Shown piece by piece: positions 10,861 to 30,819 of a DNA stretch of 64,000 nt. The notes below the pieces were generated by a model. The model was not told the origin of the DNA. It was given only the letters and a program-made list of their open reading frames with translations, and searched no databases. Both the position numbers and the translations under genes were made by a program. Each line of letters opens with the position of its first letter. Position 1 is the first letter of the stretch. The DNA comes from Oscillatoria sp. SIO1A7 (GTDB lineage: Bacteria > Cyanobacteriota > Cyanobacteriia > Cyanobacteriales > Laspinemataceae). The stretch is from NCBI GenBank assembly GCA_010672965.1, contig JAAHFN010000022.1, forward strand, positions 1 through 64,000. Reading direction: 5' to 3'.

Positions 10861-13800
10861 ATGCTTGCTAGGATGGCAGAGAAATTGGTTTCAATCCAGT
10901 TATGGCCGCGCATTGGTATTGCTTGGGAGCGTTGGCCAGCACCGAGGAACGACTATTTAACTAATTTGGCGATATCTATGATAGAGCTGTTACCATTTTT
11001 GGCCGAGCCTTTAAAAAACTGCGCGATCGCGATCGCCTCAACGGCAGCCTCAACCGCAGCGCGTCACGCTGTCAACAAAAAGCTAGAAGCAGGCAAAATC
11101 CAGAAGTTTCTCAACGCGGGCATCGAGGCCGCCGCAGCCTGGGACAAGAAACGGGATGTAGAAGAACATCTTTTTTATCGCTGCGAGCCAGACTTTATTG
11201 GCCAATTTTTCCAGCAGTTTTTCCAATATCCAGGAGTGACTGAGGAGCTACAAAAGCCCATAGCCAAGGAGGAGATGCCCCAAGTCGCTTTTTTGGTAGA
11301 GGCTTTCAAGGAGGCATTGGCAGGATATTCCAAGTTCGCTGGCAAAATTGACGAAGAACGAATCGAGCCTTGGCTAAGAGTCTTTGCCGAAAATTATTTG
11401 GCAGCAACCAGTAAATACTATTTAAGACTACGAGTAGCCACAGATAACTACCGTAAAAAACTGCTGCTTAAGTTAGACCATATTAAGTTTGCGGGTATGG
11501 CGATCGCAGCGAAGGAAGGCGATCGGTCTCAGCAGCTTGAGACAATTTTTGTTATGCCCGATGTTTTGGAAGAGGCCAAACCGGAGTTGCCTTTATCGAT
11601 CGCGGATTTTGAGAAGGCCGCCAATAAGAGCAAGCGCCAGCCAAGATCCTTGCAGGGACTGGAGCGAGGGGGGCGATCGCTGCCAGCAGAGGAAATATTA
11701 GAGCTAGCTCCTTCCCCTCAAAAAAACCAGCAAAGGAGAGTTGTCATTTTGGGAGAACCGGGGAGTGGCAAGACTACTTTGCTCGCCCATTTTGCCGTCG
11801 AGCTGGCTAAGGATAATCTGGCCGATAACCGGGCGAACAATCCGGCTCAGAATAAATTGGCAAAATCCGCAGAGCCGGACTTGCTGCCTATTTTAATTTC
11901 AGTTCGAGATTTGGTCGGGCATCTCGATGTGAGCATTCTCGATTACCTGCGGCAATTTGCCGAGAAAAACCTGGAAATTGCATCCCTGCCCGGTGGTTTT
12001 TTTGAATATTGGCTGGAGGGGGGACGGGCGCTGATTTTGCTAGACGGACTGGACGAGGCCGCCAGCGAAACCAAGCGACGCCAAATCGCCGAGCGGATTG
12101 AGTTGTTTCTGGCAGAATATCCCAGAAATCCGGCTATTATCACCTCTCGCCCAGCGGGTTATCGGCACGACTTTTTCCGCACCGCCGATATGCCTCACTA
12201 TACTATGCAGCCTTTTGACGATGCCAAAATAGAGGAATTTATCGACAATTGGTATGAAAGCAGAATCGAAGATCCGCAGGAGGCAGGGCGGTGGAAAAAG
12301 AGTCTCAAAAACGCTTTAGACGAGCAGGAGGCAATCAAGCAATTAACTCGCAATCCCCTATTGCTGACAATTATTTCCCTAATTCATCGCTATGAAGCTC
12401 ACTTGCCGAAAGAGCGCTACAAGCTTTACGAAAGCGCGGTGCAGACTTTGTTAATTAACTGGGACAAAAAAAGAGAGTTAGAGCCAAGAGATCTGGAATA
12501 TTTGGTGCCAAATGATTTTAAACGCTTGATGGAGCGGCTGGCCTACTGGGTTCACTGCCAAGCGATCGCCGGAGAGGAGGGAGAGGGCGGCACTCTAATC
12601 GAGAGAGAGGAGCTAATCGAGCAACTCACCCAATATATCAAGGAGCTGAAACCGATGAAACAGCTCCAGCGATACGAGGCGAAATTGGAAGCAGGGTGCT
12701 TTGTCGATTATATCCGAGAGCGCACCGGCTTGCTCAACGAATATGGGGTGGACAAGTACGCTTTCGTACATAAGACTTTTCAAGAATATCTAGCGGCTGA
12801 AGAAATCCGCTATCGCCAGGAAGACGACGACTTTGAAGAAGTGCTGGAGCATATTGAAAAATATCTCCATAATTCCCACTGGCGCGAAGTCTTGCTGCTG
12901 CTGATTGCCCAACAAAAACCCAAAAAAGCTACCAAGGTTTTGCGGAAAATCCTGGAGCAACCCACCCCTTACGAATCCTGGCTGCATCGAAATCTATTCT
13001 TTGCCGGTCGCTGCTTGGCAGAAGATATCGAGGTTTCCGACCCAGATCTGGTTAAAAATATTTTAGAGCAATTTGTGGACTTGGAGGCAAAAGGCCATTA
13101 TCGGGTTGGTGATAGAGTTAGATCTGAGGTTTTTAAGGTTCTGTCCAGTTTGAGTCAGACGCAGTTTGACGAGACGGCGCTGGAATTATTGCAGGAGAGG
13201 CTAAGGGATAGTAATAAGGGAAGATTGCCAAAATACTGGGCAGCCTTCGCCACAAAGGAAGTTGCGACTAAAGCGATCCTACTTATGCTTAAGGATGAGA
13301 GCGATTCGGTGCGCGGTAGTGCAGCCTCTGCTTTAGGCAAGTTAGGGGGCAAGTCCGAGGCGGTAATCTCAAAACTTCTATCTCTGCTTAAAGATGAGAG
13401 CGATTCGGTGCGCGTTAATGCGGCCTCTGCTTTAGGCAAGTTAGGGGGCAACTCCGAGGCGGTAATTTCAGAACTTCTATCTCTGCTTAAAAACGAGAGC
13501 GAAGACGTGCGCATTAATGCGGCCTCTGCTTTGGGCAAATTAAGGGGAAATTCGGAAGCGGTAATTCCAAGACTTCTATCTCTGCTTAAAGATCGGAGCT
13601 ATTGGGTGCGTGGGGAAGCGGCCAATGCTTTGGGCAAGTTAGAGGGCGATTCGGAGGCGCTAGTTTCAGGACTTCTATCTCTGCTTAAAGATGAGAGCGA
13701 GGAGGTACGCCGAAGTGCAGCCTATGCCTTGGGCAAGCTAAAGGGCGACTCGGAGGCGGTAGTTCCAGAACTTCTGCCCTTGCTTAAAGATGAGAGCGAC

Positions 13801-14463
13801 TGGGTGTGCGGGATTGCGGTCTATGTTTTGGGGAAACTAGGAGACAACTCGGAGGCGGTAATTACAGAACTTTTGCCCTTGCTTAAAAATGAGAGTAAGT
13901 GGGTGCGTGCGATCGCGGCCGTTGCTTTAGGGGAGCTAGGGGGCGACTCAGAGGCGGTAGTTCCAGGACTTCTAGCTCTGCTTAAGGACAAAAGTGAATG
14001 GGTGCGTGCGATCGCGGCTTTAGCTTTGAGCGAGCTAGGGAGCGACTCGGAGGCGGTAGTTCCAGGACTTCTATTTCTACTTAAAGATGAGAGCAATTTT
14101 GTGCGTGCCATCGCGATGTATGCTTTAAGCCAGTTAGGGGGCGACTCGGAGGCGGTAGTTCCAGAGCTTCTATCTCTGCTTAAAGATGAGAATGATTTGG
14201 TGCGCGGGAGTGCGGCCTCTGCTTTAAGGGAGCTAGGGGGCAACTCGGAAGCGGTAATTCCAGGACTTCTATCTCTGCTTAAAGATGACAGTGATTTGGT
14301 GCGCTCGAAAGCCGCCGATGCTCTGGTTAAGTTAGGTAAGTCTTATGGCAAAGGTGCTGAAGCCATTATCGCGCAATGGATTGAAGACAACCGGGATTTT
14401 GAAAATCTGGGAGATGCTATAGATACTTTGTGGGATATTACCAGCGAAGAGGAGAAAAACTGA
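10861..14463 (+). CDS. NACHT-domain STAND NTPase with C-terminal HEAT-repeat array
   Basis: This 1200-residue protein is predicted to be an NLR-like signalling ATPase. The order is: an uncharacterised helical N-terminal domain (about 40-290); NACHT ATPase with Walker A GEPGSGKTT (Lys 304), Walker B ALILLDGLDEA (Asp 395), and the IITSRPAGYR sensor motif; a winged-helix and helical region with FVHKTFQEYLAAEEI; then eleven 33-residue HEAT-like repeats (residues about 806-1168) of consensus LLSLLKDESxxVRxxAAxALGKLGGxSEAV. Bacterial NACHT proteins of this plan include known antiphage proteins, with the repeat array as presumed sensor; a defence role here is inference. The ATG at 10978 (MIELLPFLAEPLK), at the start of the domain-like sequence, may be the real start rather than 10861; neither has a strong ribosome site. 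No separate effector is visible, so the N-terminal domain may be the effector. Confidence 0.85.
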   Translation: MLARMAEKLVSIQLWPRIGIAWERWPAPRNDYLTNLAISMIELLPFLAEPLKNCAIAIASTAASTAARHAVNKKLEAGKIQKFLNAGIEAAAAWDKKRDVEEHLFYRCEPDFIGQFFQQFFQYPGVTEELQKPIAKEEMPQVAFLVEAFKEALAGYSKFAGKIDEERIEPWLRVFAENYLAATSKYYLRLRVATDNYRKKLLLKLDHIKFAGMAIAAKEGDRSQQLETIFVMPDVLEEAKPELPLSIADFEKAANKSKRQPRSLQGLERGGRSLPAEEILELAPSPQKNQQRRVVILGEPGSGKTTLLAHFAVELAKDNLADNRANNPAQNKLAKSAEPDLLPILISVRDLVGHLDVSILDYLRQFAEKNLEIASLPGGFFEYWLEGGRALILLDGLDEAASETKRRQIAERIELFLAEYPRNPAIITSRPAGYRHDFFRTADMPHYTMQPFDDAKIEEFIDNWYESRIEDPQEAGRWKKSLKNALDEQEAIKQLTRNPLLLTIISLIHRYEAHLPKERYKLYESAVQTLLINWDKKRELEPRDLEYLVPNDFKRLMERLAYWVHCQAIAGEEGEGGTLIEREELIEQLTQYIKELKPMKQLQRYEAKLEAGCFVDYIRERTGLLNEYGVDKYAFVHKTFQEYLAAEEIRYRQEDDDFEEVLEHIEKYLHNSHWREVLLLLIAQQKPKKATKVLRKILEQPTPYESWLHRNLFFAGRCLAEDIEVSDPDLVKNILEQFVDLEAKGHYRVGDRVRSEVFKVLSSLSQTQFDETALELLQERLRDSNKGRLPKYWAAFATKEVATKAILLMLKDESDSVRGSAASALGKLGGKSEAVISKLLSLLKDESDSVRVNAASALGKLGGNSEAVISELLSLLKNESEDVRINAASALGKLRGNSEAVIPRLLSLLKDRSYWVRGEAANALGKLEGDSEALVSGLLSLLKDESEEVRRSAAYALGKLKGDSEAVVPELLPLLKDESDWVCGIAVYVLGKLGDNSEAVITELLPLLKNESKWVRAIAAVALGELGGDSEAVVPGLLALLKDKSEWVRAIAALALSELGSDSEAVVPGLLFLLKDESNFVRAIAMYALSQLGGDSEAVVPELLSLLKDENDLVRGSAASALRELGGNSEAVIPGLLSLLKDDSDLVRSKAADALVKLGKSYGKGAEAIIAQWIEDNRDFENLGDAIDTLWDITSEEEKN
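13276..14364 (+). repeat. Eleven-unit 99-bp tandem repeat encoding HEAT repeats
   Basis: Units share long identical stretches such as GAGGCGGTAGTTCCAG and CTTCTATCTCTGCTTAAAGA, so the array is conserved at DNA level and not only at protein level. This points to recent expansion or homogenisation. Variation concentrates at the codons for two or three residues after the conserved Lys-Asp and around VRxxA. Confidence 0.85.
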
Positions 14464-23721: not shown

Positions 23722-26700
23722 ATGAAGCAAGCAAACAAAAGCAACCGAGATAAGCGAAGGAAATCGTCTATATATAATAGAGTCGAGGAGGGTTTCCTAG
23801 ATATTGTCGCAAATACTTTCCGAAATATTGCCGCGTTTTTAAGGAGTTGTTTGCCTTTGCAAGGCTCCCCCCGCGATTCCGGCGATCGCGATCGCGCCAC
23901 CCTCCCCCGAATCCCCTCTCGGGAAAAAACTAGGGGATGGCTGCGAGCTTATCGTTCCAGGATTGGCATAGCCCTATTATTTTTTCTCTCAATTCCCATA
24001 CCCTGGATTTTCGCCCAGATGCCCGGGTCAGCCCATATTGCTCCCGGAGGAGAGCATCAACTTTCAACTACCCCTACACTCTACACTCTACACCCTACAG
24101 CCCACACCACACCCTACACCCCTACAGCCGCAGCTTCGCCGGGAGAAATAGTGCAACAGGCGCGGCAACTTTATCAGATCGGGGATTTCGAGGCAGCGGC
24201 TAGAACCTGGCAGCAAGCGGCGGATGCTTTTGCCAATTTAGGCGATCGCCTGAATCAAGCAATGGCTTTAAGCAATCTTTCCTTAAGCTATCAGCAGCTA
24301 GGCCAATGGGACGAAGCAGCCGGAGCGATCGGCCAAAGCCTGGATGTATTGCAAAGTCTAGACAAGACAGAAGACCAATTGCGCGTTTTGGCCGAAAGTT
24401 TGGAAATCCAAGGTTTCGTGCAGCGCTCCAAAGGCGCGTCTCTTGAAGCATTAGAGACTTGGAGGCAGGCGGAGGAAATCTATGTTCAAATGGCCAATCG
24501 ACCCGATCGCTTTAATTCGTCGGACTTGATTCGCGAGAATGCCATTCAAAAGAAAATCGCTAAAAACCAAATTCGCCAAGCAAGAGCCCTACAGGATCTA
24601 GGACTATATCGGAGAGCTTGCAAAACTTTACTCGGAGCTTTGGAACTGGACAATCGAACTTGCCAGGTATCCGAGCCGGAACTTTTTGCTTTTCGCGAAG
24701 GATCGGAACTATTACAAATCGAAGGTTTGGTTGCTCTTGGGGATGTCTTGCGCGTTACCGGCAAGCTGGAGCCAGCCTACGATATTTTGTCTGTAACTCT
24801 AAAAGAAGCTCGGGAGATAGGCTACCCAAAAATTGCCTCAATTTACCTCAGTTTGGGCAGTGCCGAACGAGCCCGGGGCAACGAAAAAATAGCATTAGAT
24901 TTTTACAAAACCGCCGCATCGAAGGCAATATCTCCAACCAGGCGACTTCAGGCACAACTCAATCAACTCAGCTTGTTGCTGGAGGATAAAAACTGGTCGT
25001 TAGCAGAATCTTTGTGGCGAGATATCGCACCGGCGCTCGATAACTTACCTGCCAGCCGCGCTGGAATCTACGCTCAGATTAACTTTGCAGGCAGTTTGGT
25101 AAAAAATGTCGAGTTAAGAGCCAATATAAACCTCGATAATGCCAAACAAAATATTAACTCTCTATTATCGATTCTCGACTCTGCCGACAGAGTTTTAGAC
25201 CGAGCGGTGTCCCAGGCGAAAATGCTGGGAGATACTCGCGCCGGAGCATACTCCCTGAGTGCGCGGGGTCGGCTCTACGAGCTAAGGCAGGAATGGCAAA
25301 CTGCCCAACAATTTACCGAAGAAGCGCTCAATCTGGCTCCAGTCTATAAGGAACCGGATATTGCTTACCAATTATTATGGCAGTTGGGACGGATTCGCAA
25401 AGCTCAAGGAAATAGACAGGGAGCGATCGTTGACTACACGGAAGCAGTGAAAACCCTGCAATCCTTAAGGAGCGACTTAGTAGCAGCCAGCTCGGAAGCT
25501 CAGTTTTCTTTCCGAGAAAGCGTCGAACCCGTCTATAGAGAGCTAGTCGGTCTTCTTTTGCCAGCAGAGGGGGAAGCTACCCAAGCAGAATTGCGAGAAG
25601 CTCGCAAATCGATTGAGTTTCTCCAAGTAGCAGAATTGGATAATTTCTTTCAGGATGCTTGTGCAGACGTGCGTCCGGCTCAAATAGATGCAGTCGATCC
25701 CAAGGCGGCGGTTTTTTACACGATTATTTTACCAGAACGACTGGAAGTAATTGCCGCCCTACCGGGGCAACCTCTGCGCCGTTACGGGACGGCTTTGCCT
25801 CAGGAAGAAGTAGAAGCGACGGTAAAAGAACTACAGCAGGCGGTAACTGTCCGTCGGTTTATCTTAGATATCAAACGCTTTTTTAAACCGTCGCAAAAAG
25901 TCTATGATTGGTTAGTTCGCCCGGTAGAAGCCGAGCTGGCAGAAAGCGGAGTGAAAACTTTGGTTTTTGTCTTAGATGGCAAGCTGCGCAGTATCCCCGT
26001 TTCCGCTCTCTATGACGGAAAGCAATATTTAATAGAGAAGTACGGCGTAGCGGTGACTCCGGGGCTGCAGCTCTTAGACCCGAAACCTTTGCCTCGACAA
26101 GAACTAAAGGCGATCGCAGCGGGACTGACTCAGGCGCGCCAGGGATTTTCGCCGCTTCCCAATGTCGGCTTGGAATTAAATCGCATCGAAGCGGAGGTCG
26201 AGAGCGAAGTGCTGCTCGATGGTTCTTTCACCGAATCCAATTTTCAGAATATAGTTGAATCTTTCCCCTTCCCGGTAGTCCATGTTGCCACTCATGGAGA
26301 ATTCAGTTCTAGCGCCGAAGATACCTTTATCCTTACCTGGGACGATCGCATTAATGCCACCGAACTCAGCAACGTTCTGCGCAGAGATACTCGGGAAACA
26401 ATTCCTATCGAACTCCTTGTTCTCAGTGCTTGCCGAACTGCTGTAGGAGACAAGCGAGCTGCTTTGGGCTTGGCAGGAGTAGCAGTGCGAGCGGGAGCGC
26501 GCAGTACCCTAGCATCTCTTTGGTATGTTTCCGATGAAGCCACCGCTATTTTGATGGAGCGTTTCTATCAAGAACTTGCCAATAGCTCCGTCACCAAAGC
26601 CGAAGCCCTCCGCCGCGCCCAGGAGGCAATTTTGCAAGACCGGAGACTATCCCATCCTTATTATTGGTCGGCCTTCATGCTAGTTGGCAATTGGCTGTAA
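23722..26700 (+). CDS. TPR-CHAT protein, caspase-like peptidase, secreted or membrane-anchored
   Basis: This 992-residue CHAT-family cysteine protease candidate has TPR repeats. A positively charged N-terminus of about 80 residues precedes a hydrophobic segment (IGIALLFFLSIPIPWIFAQ), either an unusually placed signal peptide or a TM anchor. TPR-like helices follow from about residue 140 (ARQLYQIGDFEAAARTWQQA; LNQAMALSNLSLSYQQLGQW) to about 600, then the CHAT domain with catalytic His 858 (HVATHGEF) and Cys 904 (LVLSACRTAVG) and the C-terminal HPYYWSAFMLVG box. Both catalytic residues are present. CHAT proteins next to TPS exoproteins are common in cyanobacteria, and CHAT proteases act in other defence systems; the substrate is unknown. 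A Thr/Pro/Tyr/His-rich insert (CTACACTCTACACCCTACA repeats, 24066-24130) lies between the hydrophobic segment and the first TPR. The start follows GGGAAG. Confidence 0.9.
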   Translation: MKQANKSNRDKRRKSSIYNRVEEGFLDIVANTFRNIAAFLRSCLPLQGSPRDSGDRDRATLPRIPSREKTRGWLRAYRSRIGIALLFFLSIPIPWIFAQMPGSAHIAPGGEHQLSTTPTLYTLHPTAHTTPYTPTAAASPGEIVQQARQLYQIGDFEAAARTWQQAADAFANLGDRLNQAMALSNLSLSYQQLGQWDEAAGAIGQSLDVLQSLDKTEDQLRVLAESLEIQGFVQRSKGASLEALETWRQAEEIYVQMANRPDRFNSSDLIRENAIQKKIAKNQIRQARALQDLGLYRRACKTLLGALELDNRTCQVSEPELFAFREGSELLQIEGLVALGDVLRVTGKLEPAYDILSVTLKEAREIGYPKIASIYLSLGSAERARGNEKIALDFYKTAASKAISPTRRLQAQLNQLSLLLEDKNWSLAESLWRDIAPALDNLPASRAGIYAQINFAGSLVKNVELRANINLDNAKQNINSLLSILDSADRVLDRAVSQAKMLGDTRAGAYSLSARGRLYELRQEWQTAQQFTEEALNLAPVYKEPDIAYQLLWQLGRIRKAQGNRQGAIVDYTEAVKTLQSLRSDLVAASSEAQFSFRESVEPVYRELVGLLLPAEGEATQAELREARKSIEFLQVAELDNFFQDACADVRPAQIDAVDPKAAVFYTIILPERLEVIAALPGQPLRRYGTALPQEEVEATVKELQQAVTVRRFILDIKRFFKPSQKVYDWLVRPVEAELAESGVKTLVFVLDGKLRSIPVSALYDGKQYLIEKYGVAVTPGLQLLDPKPLPRQELKAIAAGLTQARQGFSPLPNVGLELNRIEAEVESEVLLDGSFTESNFQNIVESFPFPVVHVATHGEFSSSAEDTFILTWDDRINATELSNVLRRDTRETIPIELLVLSACRTAVGDKRAALGLAGVAVRAGARSTLASLWYVSDEATAILMERFYQELANSSVTKAEALRRAQEAILQDRRLSHPYYWSAFMLVGNWL

Positions 26701-27975: not shown

Positions 27976-28647
27976 ATGCTAATTTCGCTTCAAAATGGTA
28001 TAGCCCGAGGAAAAGCGATCGCCCTGCTATCTTTGACTGTAGCGATCGTTGGCTTGCCCTCGGTGGTTCTGAGCCAAGAAATGGTGGGTCGAATAGAACA
28101 AGTTGTCAATGCTGGAATAATGTCTGAATATCCCGACGGACAGTTTCATCCAGAAAGAGTTCTCGTTAAAGCCGAAATAGCAGCAATTTTAGTCAAAAAT
28201 TTCAACCTAGACCAGCGTCGGACGGGACAGACAGGTGCGGTGTATGTGAAAGACGTGCCTCAGAACCACTGGGCCTACCAGTACGTTCAGACTGTGGTTA
28301 GAACTGGGGTGATGAAACTGGATCGAGAGGGAAGGTTTCAGCCCGGAGAAAAAGTAACTAGGGCCGCTGGACTGACAGCCTTTGCCCAAGCTTATGGGCT
28401 GTTTCAAATGACCCAGGGAGAAATTGGCAGAGTCTTAGATTCTTATAGGGATGCCAATCAAATACCGGATTGGGCTAGAGTAGCGATCGCTACTCTTATA
28501 TTTGAAGACTTGACCAACATCGATACAGCAAGCAACCGCATAGAACCCTTAAGGCCCATGACTCGCGGGGATATTGCTTACACCTTGAGTCAATATCTAG
28601 CCAAACTCCAGAATCCCGGAACCATTCCTAGTATTCCCCTCGATTAG
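27976..28647 (+). CDS. SLH-domain exported protein
   Basis: This 223-residue protein has a signal peptide (IALLSLTVAIVGLPSVVLSQ) and three S-layer-homology-like segments: VVNAGIMSEYPDGQFHPERVLVKAEIAAIL, DVPQNHWAYQYVQTVVRTGVM with FQPGEKVTRAAG, and IPDWARVAIATLIFEDL with LRPMTRGDIAYTL. In cyanobacteria SLH domains link outer-membrane proteins to peptidoglycan. Unlike the large SLH-OprB porins it has no barrel, so it is a stand-alone cell-wall protein. The start at 27976 directly precedes the signal peptide; no strong ribosome site is seen (AT-rich TAATG repeats lie upstream). Family call is confident; partner unknown. Confidence 0.8.
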   Translation: MLISLQNGIARGKAIALLSLTVAIVGLPSVVLSQEMVGRIEQVVNAGIMSEYPDGQFHPERVLVKAEIAAILVKNFNLDQRRTGQTGAVYVKDVPQNHWAYQYVQTVVRTGVMKLDREGRFQPGEKVTRAAGLTAFAQAYGLFQMTQGEIGRVLDSYRDANQIPDWARVAIATLIFEDLTNIDTASNRIEPLRPMTRGDIAYTLSQYLAKLQNPGTIPSIPLD

Positions 28648-28799
28648 GATTTGGTGTTATAGCACTCAGCACTCAGCACTCAGCTCGCTCGCACAAGCAT
28701 TGCCAGGATGTAGGGGGACGTAGGGGCGTTGGCGGAGCCTGCCCTTACGGGCCAACGCCCCTACTACTCTCCTGCTATAAAACATATATCGATTAGTTT

Positions 28800-29405
28800 T
28801 GTTCTAGGTTCCGAAAAAAGCTTCGGCGATCGCCATCAAAAAGCGCGATAAAACCGAACTCAAGCTCGAAGCAAATCTCGATAGAGTAAAAACAAGCAAC
28901 AAGCTAAAGCATATATAGATTAGTTTTGTTGTAAGGTTGCTAAATTCGGCGATCGCCATCAAAAAGCGCGATAAAACCGAACTCAAGCTCGAAGCAAATC
29001 TCGATAGAGTAAAAACAAGCAACAAGCTAAAGCATATCGATTAGTTTTGTTGTCAGGTTGCTAAATTCGGCGATCGCCATCAAAAAGCGCGATAAAACCG
29101 AACTCAAGCTCGAAGCAAATCTCGATAGAGTAAAAGCAAGCAACAAGCTAAAGCATATATCGATTAGTCTTGTTGTAAGGTTGCTAAATTCGGCGATCGC
29201 CATCAAAAAGCGCGATAAAACCGAACTCAAGCTCGAAGCAAACCTCGATAGAGTAAAAACAAGCAACAAGCTAAAGCATATATAGATTAGTTTTGTTGTA
29301 AGGTTGCTAAATTCGGCGATCGCCATCAAAAAGCGAGACAAAACCGAACTCAAGCTCGAAGCAAAGCTTGATAGAGTAAAAACAACAAACAAAAAAGGAG
29401 ATTTC
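28800..29405 (+). repeat. Five-copy 121-123 bp tandem repeat forming the hsp20 leader
   Basis: Anchor CGGCGATCGCCATCAAAAAG occurs at 28824, 28947, 29068, 29191 and 29314 (spacings 123, 121, 123, 123). Units 1-4 are nearly identical. The length variation is from ATAT or ATATAT in the AAGCATATATAGATTAG joint. The last unit diverges slightly and runs into AAAAAAGGAGATTTCTACC and the hsp20 start, so the array seems to be an amplified hsp20 upstream region. Open frames inside it are artefacts of the near-multiple-of-three period. I see no CIRCE operator. Confidence 0.9.
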
Positions 29406-29409
29406 TACC

Positions 29410-29847
29410 ATGACTCTGATGCGCTACTACTCTCCCTTCCGCGAAATGCAAAGCCTGCAACGGGAAATGAATCATTTATTTGAAAGTTTAGCTCCCGTTA
29501 CCAACAAAGACAAACTAGGATTTGTGCCAGCGGCGGAGATGGAAGAAACTCGCGAAGCGATTAATCTCAAACTAGAAGTGCCGGGAATCGACCCCAAAGA
29601 TATAGACGTAGAAGTCACGGCGGAGTCGATAACCATTAGCGGCCAGCGCCACGAAGAAACCAAGACCGAAGAAGAAGGCACCACTCGCACCGAATTCCGC
29701 TACGGGCAATTCAGCCGCACCATTGGCCTGCCAGCGCGGGTTCAGAATACCGAAGTCAAGGCCGAATACAAAGATGGAATTCTGAAAGTGACCCTACCGA
29801 AAGCGGAAGCCGAAAAAAACAAAGTGGTTAAAGTGAACGTCGGTTAA
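29410..29847 (+). CDS. hspA: Small heat-shock protein Hsp20/alpha-crystallin
   Basis: This 145-residue protein is an ATP-independent holdase that binds unfolding proteins and thylakoid or soluble clients under heat. It has a short N-terminal arm (MRYYSPFREMQSLQREMNHLFE), an alpha-crystallin domain from about residue 40 (LEVPGIDPKDIDVEV, ITISGQRHEE, GQFSRTIGLPARV) and the conserved end of the domain (EYKDGILKVTLPKAE). The C-terminal IXI-like motif is weak (VVKVNVG). Length matches cyanobacterial HspA. Ribosome site AAAGGAG lies nine bases upstream. Its 5' region is the five-copy tandem array, which probably affects its control. Confidence 0.9.
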   Translation: MTLMRYYSPFREMQSLQREMNHLFESLAPVTNKDKLGFVPAAEMEETREAINLKLEVPGIDPKDIDVEVTAESITISGQRHEETKTEEEGTTRTEFRYGQFSRTIGLPARVQNTEVKAEYKDGILKVTLPKAEAEKNKVVKVNVG

Positions 29848-30819
29848 TTTAGGGTGTGGGGTTTAGGGTGTAGGATTTAGGGAAAGTTTTAAGTTTTAAG
29901 TTTTGAATTTTAAGTTAAGTAATTGCGACTGTGAAAATCAAGGCTCAAGACTCAAAACTCCCTTGTCTTCCTACCGCTTACGTCTTACACTCTACCCTGC
30001 TGGACTGTCTGGCTTAAAATTGTCGGTTGCTTGAGGAAGTAACTCCAGGAAAAGATTGCTTTGGTTTTTCTTCCTCAAGCAAACAAATTATAGCGTTTCT
30101 CAAATAAGTGCGATCGGCCACCCACTCTCCCCTTTCTAGTGTAGGTTTTTTATTTTTCCCCTTTTTGCTGTTGCCGGCTTGCGGCATAAATTCTTGGTTG
30201 TATAGCACTACCGATTAAGGTGTTTGACAGTTGCAAAACGCCAACATCTTGAATTGGCAAGGCTTTGACGCTCAAGCTGAAAGCTTAAAGCATGTCCCGA
30301 GGCTAAGTCTAGGCGTAGGCGTAGCCTGCCCTCTGGGGCATAGCCTGCCCTCCGGGGCATAGGGCTGACTGCTTACTGCTATACCAATCCAGTTCATAAA
30401 TGAGCTTCGAATTGCAATGATGACCTCGGGAATGCTGTCGCCCCTACGCCTTATTTCGTTGGTCGCACTTGGCAAAAAAACATCAAATCTATATAACATT
30501 CCCAAGACAGACCGCACTCCCCTTTCATTGGGTTGTAATTTAAATTACCCTTTTAGAAGTTGCCTGCTTGCGGCATAAATTTCAGGGCGAAGCATACAAT
30601 TTCTTAAATCCTCGTCTATAGCATAGGCTATCTCGGGAATGCTGGGAATGCTGTCGCCCCTACGCCTTATTTCGTTGGTCGAACTTGGCCAAAAAACATC
30701 AAATCTTTAAAACTAACCCTTCACCACCTCCCACACTCCTCACACCTCCCAAACCTCCCACACTTCCCACACTCCCCCACACCTCCCACAGTCCCCTTCA
30801 CCACCTCCCACACTTTTAT
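29848..30819. other. Intergenic kilobase with duplicated fragments
   Basis: It contains a GTTTTAAGTTTTGAA tract (29885-29960), two diverged copies of a 70-bp sequence (30121-30192 and 30512-30581, both ending TTGCGGCATAAATT), and a second direct pair (about 30424-30490 and 30640-30700, sharing GCCTTATTTCGTTGGTCG). A CCTCCCACACTCCTCACACC tract follows (30722-30815). A 64-codon minus-strand frame covering the first copy (30014-30208) is interrupted in the second copy, so I do not call it a gene. Confidence 0.65.

Follow-up and report, generated by a model that had tools for sequence, protein, structure and literature searches.

The hsp20 gene of Oscillatoria sp. SIO1A7 is preceded by five near-identical units arranged head to tail, and every unit carries an intact core whose elements and two spacings are conserved upstream of hsp20 in other genomes. 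The best reading of this arrangement is five complete promoters in tandem, predicted from their sequence to be of the Rre1 type. The parts of such a system are already known; the natural stack on a stress gene is a new variation on them. Stacking identical promoters is an engineering device of disputed benefit. Five stacked in nature on a stress gene would reveal whether evolution has adopted it too, and whether output grows with copy number.

A five-unit tandem array upstream of hsp20

The window analysed here is the whole stretch of 64,000 nucleotides from this genome. Tandem Repeats Finder detected an array at 28778-29392 (period 123, 5.0 copies, 93% matches, score 1052), which is the top score in its list for the 64-kb window. 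Unit alignment and anchor positions resolve the array into five head-to-tail units on the plus strand, all with a period of 123 bp apart from one of 121 bp, and box-to-box spacing along it is 123, 121, 123 and 123 bp. The array is real and far beyond chance. A first-pass annotation had described five tandem units upstream of hsp20 with anchors at 28824, 28947, 29068, 29191 and 29314; the units were recovered by both Tandem Repeats Finder and the alignment, and the anchors are exact, each opening with CGGCGATCGCCATCAAAAAGCG. Its finer description needed revision. The array begins at about 28778 rather than 28800, with the left edge of the first copy diverged. Its similarity does not run exactly to the ribosome binding site but stops near 29392, a few bases before AAGGAG (29395-29400, plus strand), because the last copy diverges there, leaving the site outside the repeats. 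Nor does unit length alternate: the second interval alone is short, by 2 bp (ATAT for ATATAT). The units also differ by a C/A change (ATATCGATT or ATATAGATT). In a MAFFT alignment they are 87-98% identical pairwise, with divergence at the edges, on the left of unit 1 and the right of unit 5.

Searching the organism's own genome (182 contigs, 9,081,372 bases) with units 4-5 returned the array alone, which rules out a dispersed repeat, and the plasmids searched with the array unit gave no match. The gene downstream (29410-29847, plus strand) encodes a 145-aa protein of the Hsp20/alpha-crystallin family (Pfam PF00011, E 7.7e-23). Between the array and the SLH-domain gene upstream lies a perfect inverted repeat with 14-bp arms separated by 17 nt (28720-28764), which may terminate transcription arriving from upstream. 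Further upstream of the array, a TPR-CHAT protein of 992 aa is encoded at 23722-26700, and at 13286-14304 a 99-bp tandem repeat of 10.3 copies within a 3600-nt frame resembles a repeat protein. Minus-strand terminators were predicted six times against 1.6 expected, but these are not independent since they reflect the same weak stem in each unit (twice in unit 5), overlapping the box.

A predicted promoter core and its candidate activator

A pattern search found one core in each of the five units, TTCGG-N27-CCGAAC-N22-TAGAGT, comprising a distal half-site, a proximal box and a -10 hexamer. The cores occupy 28822-28887, 28945-29010, 29066-29131, 29189-29254 and 29312-29377, all on the plus strand. 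Alignment shows a single base change between box and -10 in unit 4, and there are four changes in the two gaps of unit 5, the copy closest to hsp20. On the plus strand of the window, the pattern T.CGG-N27-CCGAAC-N22-TAnnnT occurs in the five array units and nowhere else. The ACCGAAC boxes begin at 28853, 28976, 29097, 29220 and 29343, the last of these 67 nt upstream of the hsp20 ATG. In all five units the distal half-site is imperfect, reading ATTCGG (CTTCGG in unit 1) against GTnCGG in relatives, a single mismatch. Each unit also contains one HIP1 octamer, GCGATCGC, between its half-sites (at 28826, 28949, 29070, 29193 and 29316, together spanning 28826-29323); in the window this octamer occurs about once per kb. 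A consensus scan of 28600-29500 for an ordinary -35/-10 pair found none against 1.2 expected, which suits an activator-dependent promoter.

To place this core in a wider context, we assembled 80 comparison hsp20 upstream regions, 29 from relatives and 51 from a scan of genome contigs, with gene starts placed by script. The search of relatives covered 59 genomes, including that of SIO1A7 itself, and 56 contained a match; the matches outnumber the 29 loci taken. At least two contigs, judged by equal length, are common to both subsets, two of the 51 scanned loci are non-cyanobacterial by title, and one locus (L041) has 225 nt of upstream sequence only. Dropping near-duplicates gave 64 non-redundant upstreams, with 45 boxes in 41 loci.

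Because relatives are not independent, the counts from this survey are not probabilities, but they describe a consistent geometry. ACCGAAC/T was present within 250 nt upstream in 56 of the 80 regions and missing from 24; the same box with its letters reversed was found in none of the 80. The combination ACCGAAY-N22-TAnnnT occurred within 250 nt in 41/80. Among the loci from relatives, 22 of 29 had the box and 21 of 29 the box with its correctly spaced TAnnnT, the latter across 10 of 16 families. Within the non-redundant set, the gap from box to TAnnnT was 22 nt at 30 of the 45 boxes, and every other gap from 5 to 44 nt was seen at most seven times. Similarly, GTnCGG lay exactly 27 nt ahead of CCGAAY at 25 of the 45 boxes and 26 nt ahead at two, against two occurrences in all for the remaining gaps from 0 to 69 nt, and its reversed-letter control never appeared at these boxes (the pattern CGGnnn recovers the GTnCGG half-site itself and is no control). 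The full core, GTnCGG-N27-CCGAAY-N22-TAnnnT, was found in 34/80 loci (26/64 non-redundant) and, among relatives, in 15 of 29 loci from 8 of 16 families. Many hsp20 promoters in the same order thus follow one strict layout: GTnCGG, 27 nt, CCGAAC/T, 22 nt, TAnnnT. The inverted pair with a gap of 27 or 26 nt, present at 27 of the 45 boxes (L007-L072) and often enclosing a HIP1-like GCGATCGC, is a putative fixed-spacing operator before hsp20 in many cyanobacteria.

The half-sites resemble a published motif. According to a review, the LuxR/NarL-type response regulator Rre1 binds 5'-GTNCGGK-3' in S. elongatus PCC 7942, where the targets named as activated include chaperone genes and rpoD2/sigB (PMC13421787). 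Read on the opposite strand, ACCGAAC becomes GTTCGGT, so the proximal box fits this motif, and the distal half-site of the array fits it on the forward strand with one mismatch. ACCGAAC is present in all five units, and neither GTNCGGK nor MCCGNAC occurs elsewhere in 28601-29900. Across the 64 non-redundant upstreams, MCCGNAC in the forward orientation was found in 34 (shuffled mean 3.5, maximum 10, 100 shuffles) and GTNCGGK in 24 (shuffled mean 2.7, maximum 7, 100 shuffles). A 2026 report that used GTnCGG[t/g] places sites upstream of hsp20 and of further heat-shock genes in Microcystis C-1004, and upstream of fewer such genes in PCC 7806 (PMC13232611). Phosphorylated Rre1 is described as raising the hspA transcript, with some hspA mRNA accumulating independently of phosphorylation (PMC9321951), and in Synechocystis an rre1 mutant is said to lose osmotic induction of hspA, for which SigB is the main sigma factor named (PMC2758279). 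The array shares with Rre1 (Hik2/Hik34) heat-stress promoters such as that of hspA a chaperone target and a GTNCGGK-type box, and differs from them in its five near-identical tandem copies.

The earlier proposal of a promoter in each copy is therefore well supported: all five copies have two half-sites and a -10 element, with the spacings seen before other cyanobacterial hsp20 genes and with half-sites resembling the published Rre1 motif. Recognition of the distal half-site slightly strengthens this promoter reading.

Rre1 is likely to be present in this genome. Eight LuxR-type domain matches were detected, seven of them over the cut-off. For one full-length regulator, each of 23 other genomes has a single clear best match, 69-83% identical. 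Among the NCBIfam models listed for this regulator (25 of 113) and for a second candidate (25 of 108), none reached its cut-off. The conserved regulator is encoded on contig C113 (67972-68619, plus strand), divergent from and about 1.5 kb away from a groES gene (66188-66463, minus strand) that is preceded by CIRCE.

Outside the array, AACCGAAC-N22-TAnnnT showed no excess in this genome, with 5 matches against 17 for the backward control. The core was absent within 400 nt before seven other heat-shock starts (two groES, htpG, three dnaK and a second hsp20). Loose matches to GTnCGG or CCGnAC lie within the same distance of five of these seven (groES on C113, the three dnaK genes and the second hsp20), which says little because chance alone, with equal base use, would give about 0.8 such matches per 400 nt. 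If Rre1 controls these other heat-shock genes here, they would appear to use another arrangement.

Expected output of the array and alternative explanations

We favour, with moderate confidence, a tandem amplification of the hsp20 promoter in which each unit has a complete core, predicted to be bound by Rre1, and in which any effect on output would be modest and saturating. The inverted half-site pair TTCGG/CCGAAC, 27 nt apart, is probably the Rre1-bound element. During heat or a related stress, binding of phosphorylated Rre1 at as many as five of these sites would bring RNA polymerase to each of them. Assuming that RNA starts 7 nt past the -10 hexamer, the proximal box would lie at about -41 to -35, a position resembling class II activation, with the distal half-site some three turns further upstream. 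The start in unit 5 is predicted near 29384. Initiation at every copy would generate a nested set of transcripts whose leaders measure about 26, 149, 272, 393 and 516 nt, all leading into the one hsp20 frame. Output would then probably rise modestly and saturate, or the gene would respond more strongly when Rre1 activity is low.

Engineered precedents cut both ways, hence the expectation of a modest, saturating effect for the array. Repeats of Ptrc, PP43 and PHpaII likewise place complete promoters head to tail before one gene. In Synechocystis, three or five tandem copies of Ptrc are reported to bring no gain in ethylene production (PMC5324202). In Bacillus, output reportedly climbed up to three promoter copies, with a further 1.7% only from three to four copies of PP43 and a drop with four of PHpaII (PMC6505213). 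These constructs are synthetic, whereas the Oscillatoria array is natural and presumably stress-controlled. Another comparison is with promoter repeats of varying number, such as those of Haemophilus hmw1A (PMC2424069, PMC8262952). There, as in the array, tandem repeats lie upstream of a gene and their copy number may influence its expression. The hmw1A repeats are short, with a unit of 7 bp, whereas the array units are predicted to be whole promoters.

A more ambitious version of the promoter reading treats the array as a natural rheostat, a minisatellite of whole stress-activated promoters in which slippage alters the number of live promoters before hsp20 and so tunes thermotolerance over evolution. 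We hold this to be rather doubtful.

The main rival is a neutral minisatellite that took in the hsp20 promoter by accident as it expanded through replication slippage or unequal crossing-over. Only the gene-proximal copy would then matter, the others being passengers homogenised by recombination. We judge this possible, if on the unlikely side. The window and 19 further 20-kb stretches of this genome, 444 kb in all, hold seven other arrays with a period of at least 50 bp that for the most part do not overlap frames of about 100 aa or longer, although one of them, at the edge of L130, may be a cut-off coding repeat. Such intergenic tandem expansion is therefore ordinary in this genome, and a neutral origin stays a serious rival. 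One of these arrays, with an 86-bp unit (L125:18653-19409), exceeds the hsp20 array in length. It corresponds to about 202.7-203.4 kb of contig C98 and is intergenic, and a run of N within it leaves the copy number uncertain; it comes after a frame that by eye resembles a Clp ATPase fragment. The lack of effect reported for a fivefold engineered promoter in Synechocystis (PMC5324202) also fits passenger copies. The copies themselves, 87-98% alike, are too similar to reveal selection. None of the 13 columns in box and -10 vary among them, against 24 of 120 overall (p 0.046), but with the diverged edge of unit 1 excluded the comparison becomes 0/13 against 12/120 (p 0.24, not significant), and we regard this invariance as weak evidence of selection. 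Against a purely neutral array, all five cores are intact and the duplicated piece spans the whole core together with the predicted RNA start, so the copies further upstream would be expected to fire unless they are silenced. Even as passengers, copies that fire could influence hsp20.

It is improbable, in our estimation, that the upstream units act chiefly by offering Rre1 additional binding sites, raising the local concentration of activator or acting as a threshold sink, while transcription starts from unit 5 alone. Five identical boxes 121-123 bp apart would suit such an operator array. With a helical repeat of 10.5 bp, this spacing amounts to 11.5-11.7 turns, and the boxes are not exactly in phase. 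A pure operator, however, would have no use for a -10, and every box retains one, correctly spaced.

Similarly low is the likelihood that the copy number is an assembly error. The 615-bp array exceeds common short reads, the L125 array on the same contig has a run of N, and a two-copy 'duplication' in Okeania (L042) proved to flank an N gap. The hsp20 copies nevertheless differ from one another and the interior of their array is free of N, which shows that there is more than one copy; exactly how many there are is less certain.

The first-pass annotation had also raised a regulatory RNA element in each copy, possibly a thermometer, and proposed predicting the structure of one unit. An RNA element repeated in the leader now appears very improbable. 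There is precedent in a small heat-shock gene of another cyanobacterium, Synechocystis hsp17, which is reported to have an RNA thermometer (PMC4477652), and the hsp20 ribosome site AAGGAG is able to pair with CTCTCC in the early codons (29395-29430). This pairing partner, however, belongs to the coding sequence and lies outside the repeats. The ribosome site is also predicted to stay paired to nearly the same degree on warming: with the short leader the value drops from 0.75 at 25 C to no lower than 0.73 at 45 C, and with the longer leaders it goes from 0.64-0.67 to 0.60-0.64. In contrast to hsp17, the repeats thus lack predicted thermometer-like behaviour. Against 200 shuffles the fold of a single unit did not stand out (z = -1.27; 26 were as good), and Rfam returned six weak matches, at E values up to 5, none of which reached the gathering score. 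Taken together, these predictions in silico do not bear out an RNA element in each copy.

Control by HrcA was rejected, as CIRCE (TTAGCACTC-N9-GAGTGCTAA) is absent from 28600-29409, its core form included, and the sole inverted repeat reported (arms of at least 9 bp, within 80 nt) is a different one. A repeated peptide gene was likewise rejected: no listed frame of at least 60 aa spans all units, the frames being broken by the 121-bp unit and by a stop that the ATATAGATT variant brings.

Rarity of the array and diverged cores in Okeania

The array is a rare feature, found in a single genome, of an hsp20 promoter that is probably driven by Rre1. Among 388 genomes of the order, a search for two ACCGAAC cores 51-111 nt apart returned four pairs in the Oscillatoria genome and one match elsewhere, and its backward control gave nine matches in 6 of the 388 genomes. 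The sole outside match (G166) falls in a repetitive stretch with what by eye is a WD-repeat-like gene on the other strand. This pattern demands ACCGAAC in both boxes, so a pair such as that of L038, whose first box is ACCGAAT, escapes it. SIO1A7 is the one representative of its genus in the sets of 59 and 388 genomes. No natural array of whole promoters appeared in the titles and abstract beginnings of the literature searched, which leaves absence from print unproven.

At least two ACCGAAY boxes within 500 nt were found in 12 of the 80 comparison loci, and two box-N22-TAnnnT cores in two. One of these two, from Okeania sp. SIO3B5 (L042), is a scaffolding artefact, as its two 117-bp copies flank the run of N. 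The other, from Okeania sp. SIO1I7 (L038:320-600), is real: two full three-part cores precede hsp20 on one strand, with boxes at -228 and -92, and each has HIP1 between its half-sites, as in the array. These cores lie 136 bp apart and share 50 of 100 aligned bases, in contrast to the five near-identical copies in Oscillatoria. Because they are merely half alike, they would be old or independent rather than a recent array. The earlier statement that no similar arrangement is known thus stands for near-identical copies and falls for tandem cores as such: in the surveys made, the Oscillatoria genome is alone in its near-identical stack of five, and multiple cores before hsp20 are not unique to it.

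Repeats are present in other hsp20 upstream regions, and by comparison of positions none covers the box. In five loci of the same family (L009, L010, L012, L014 and L015), tandem repeats of 31-36 bp lie on the far side of the box, and the upstream side of this hsp20 promoter seems to be repeat-prone in the family.
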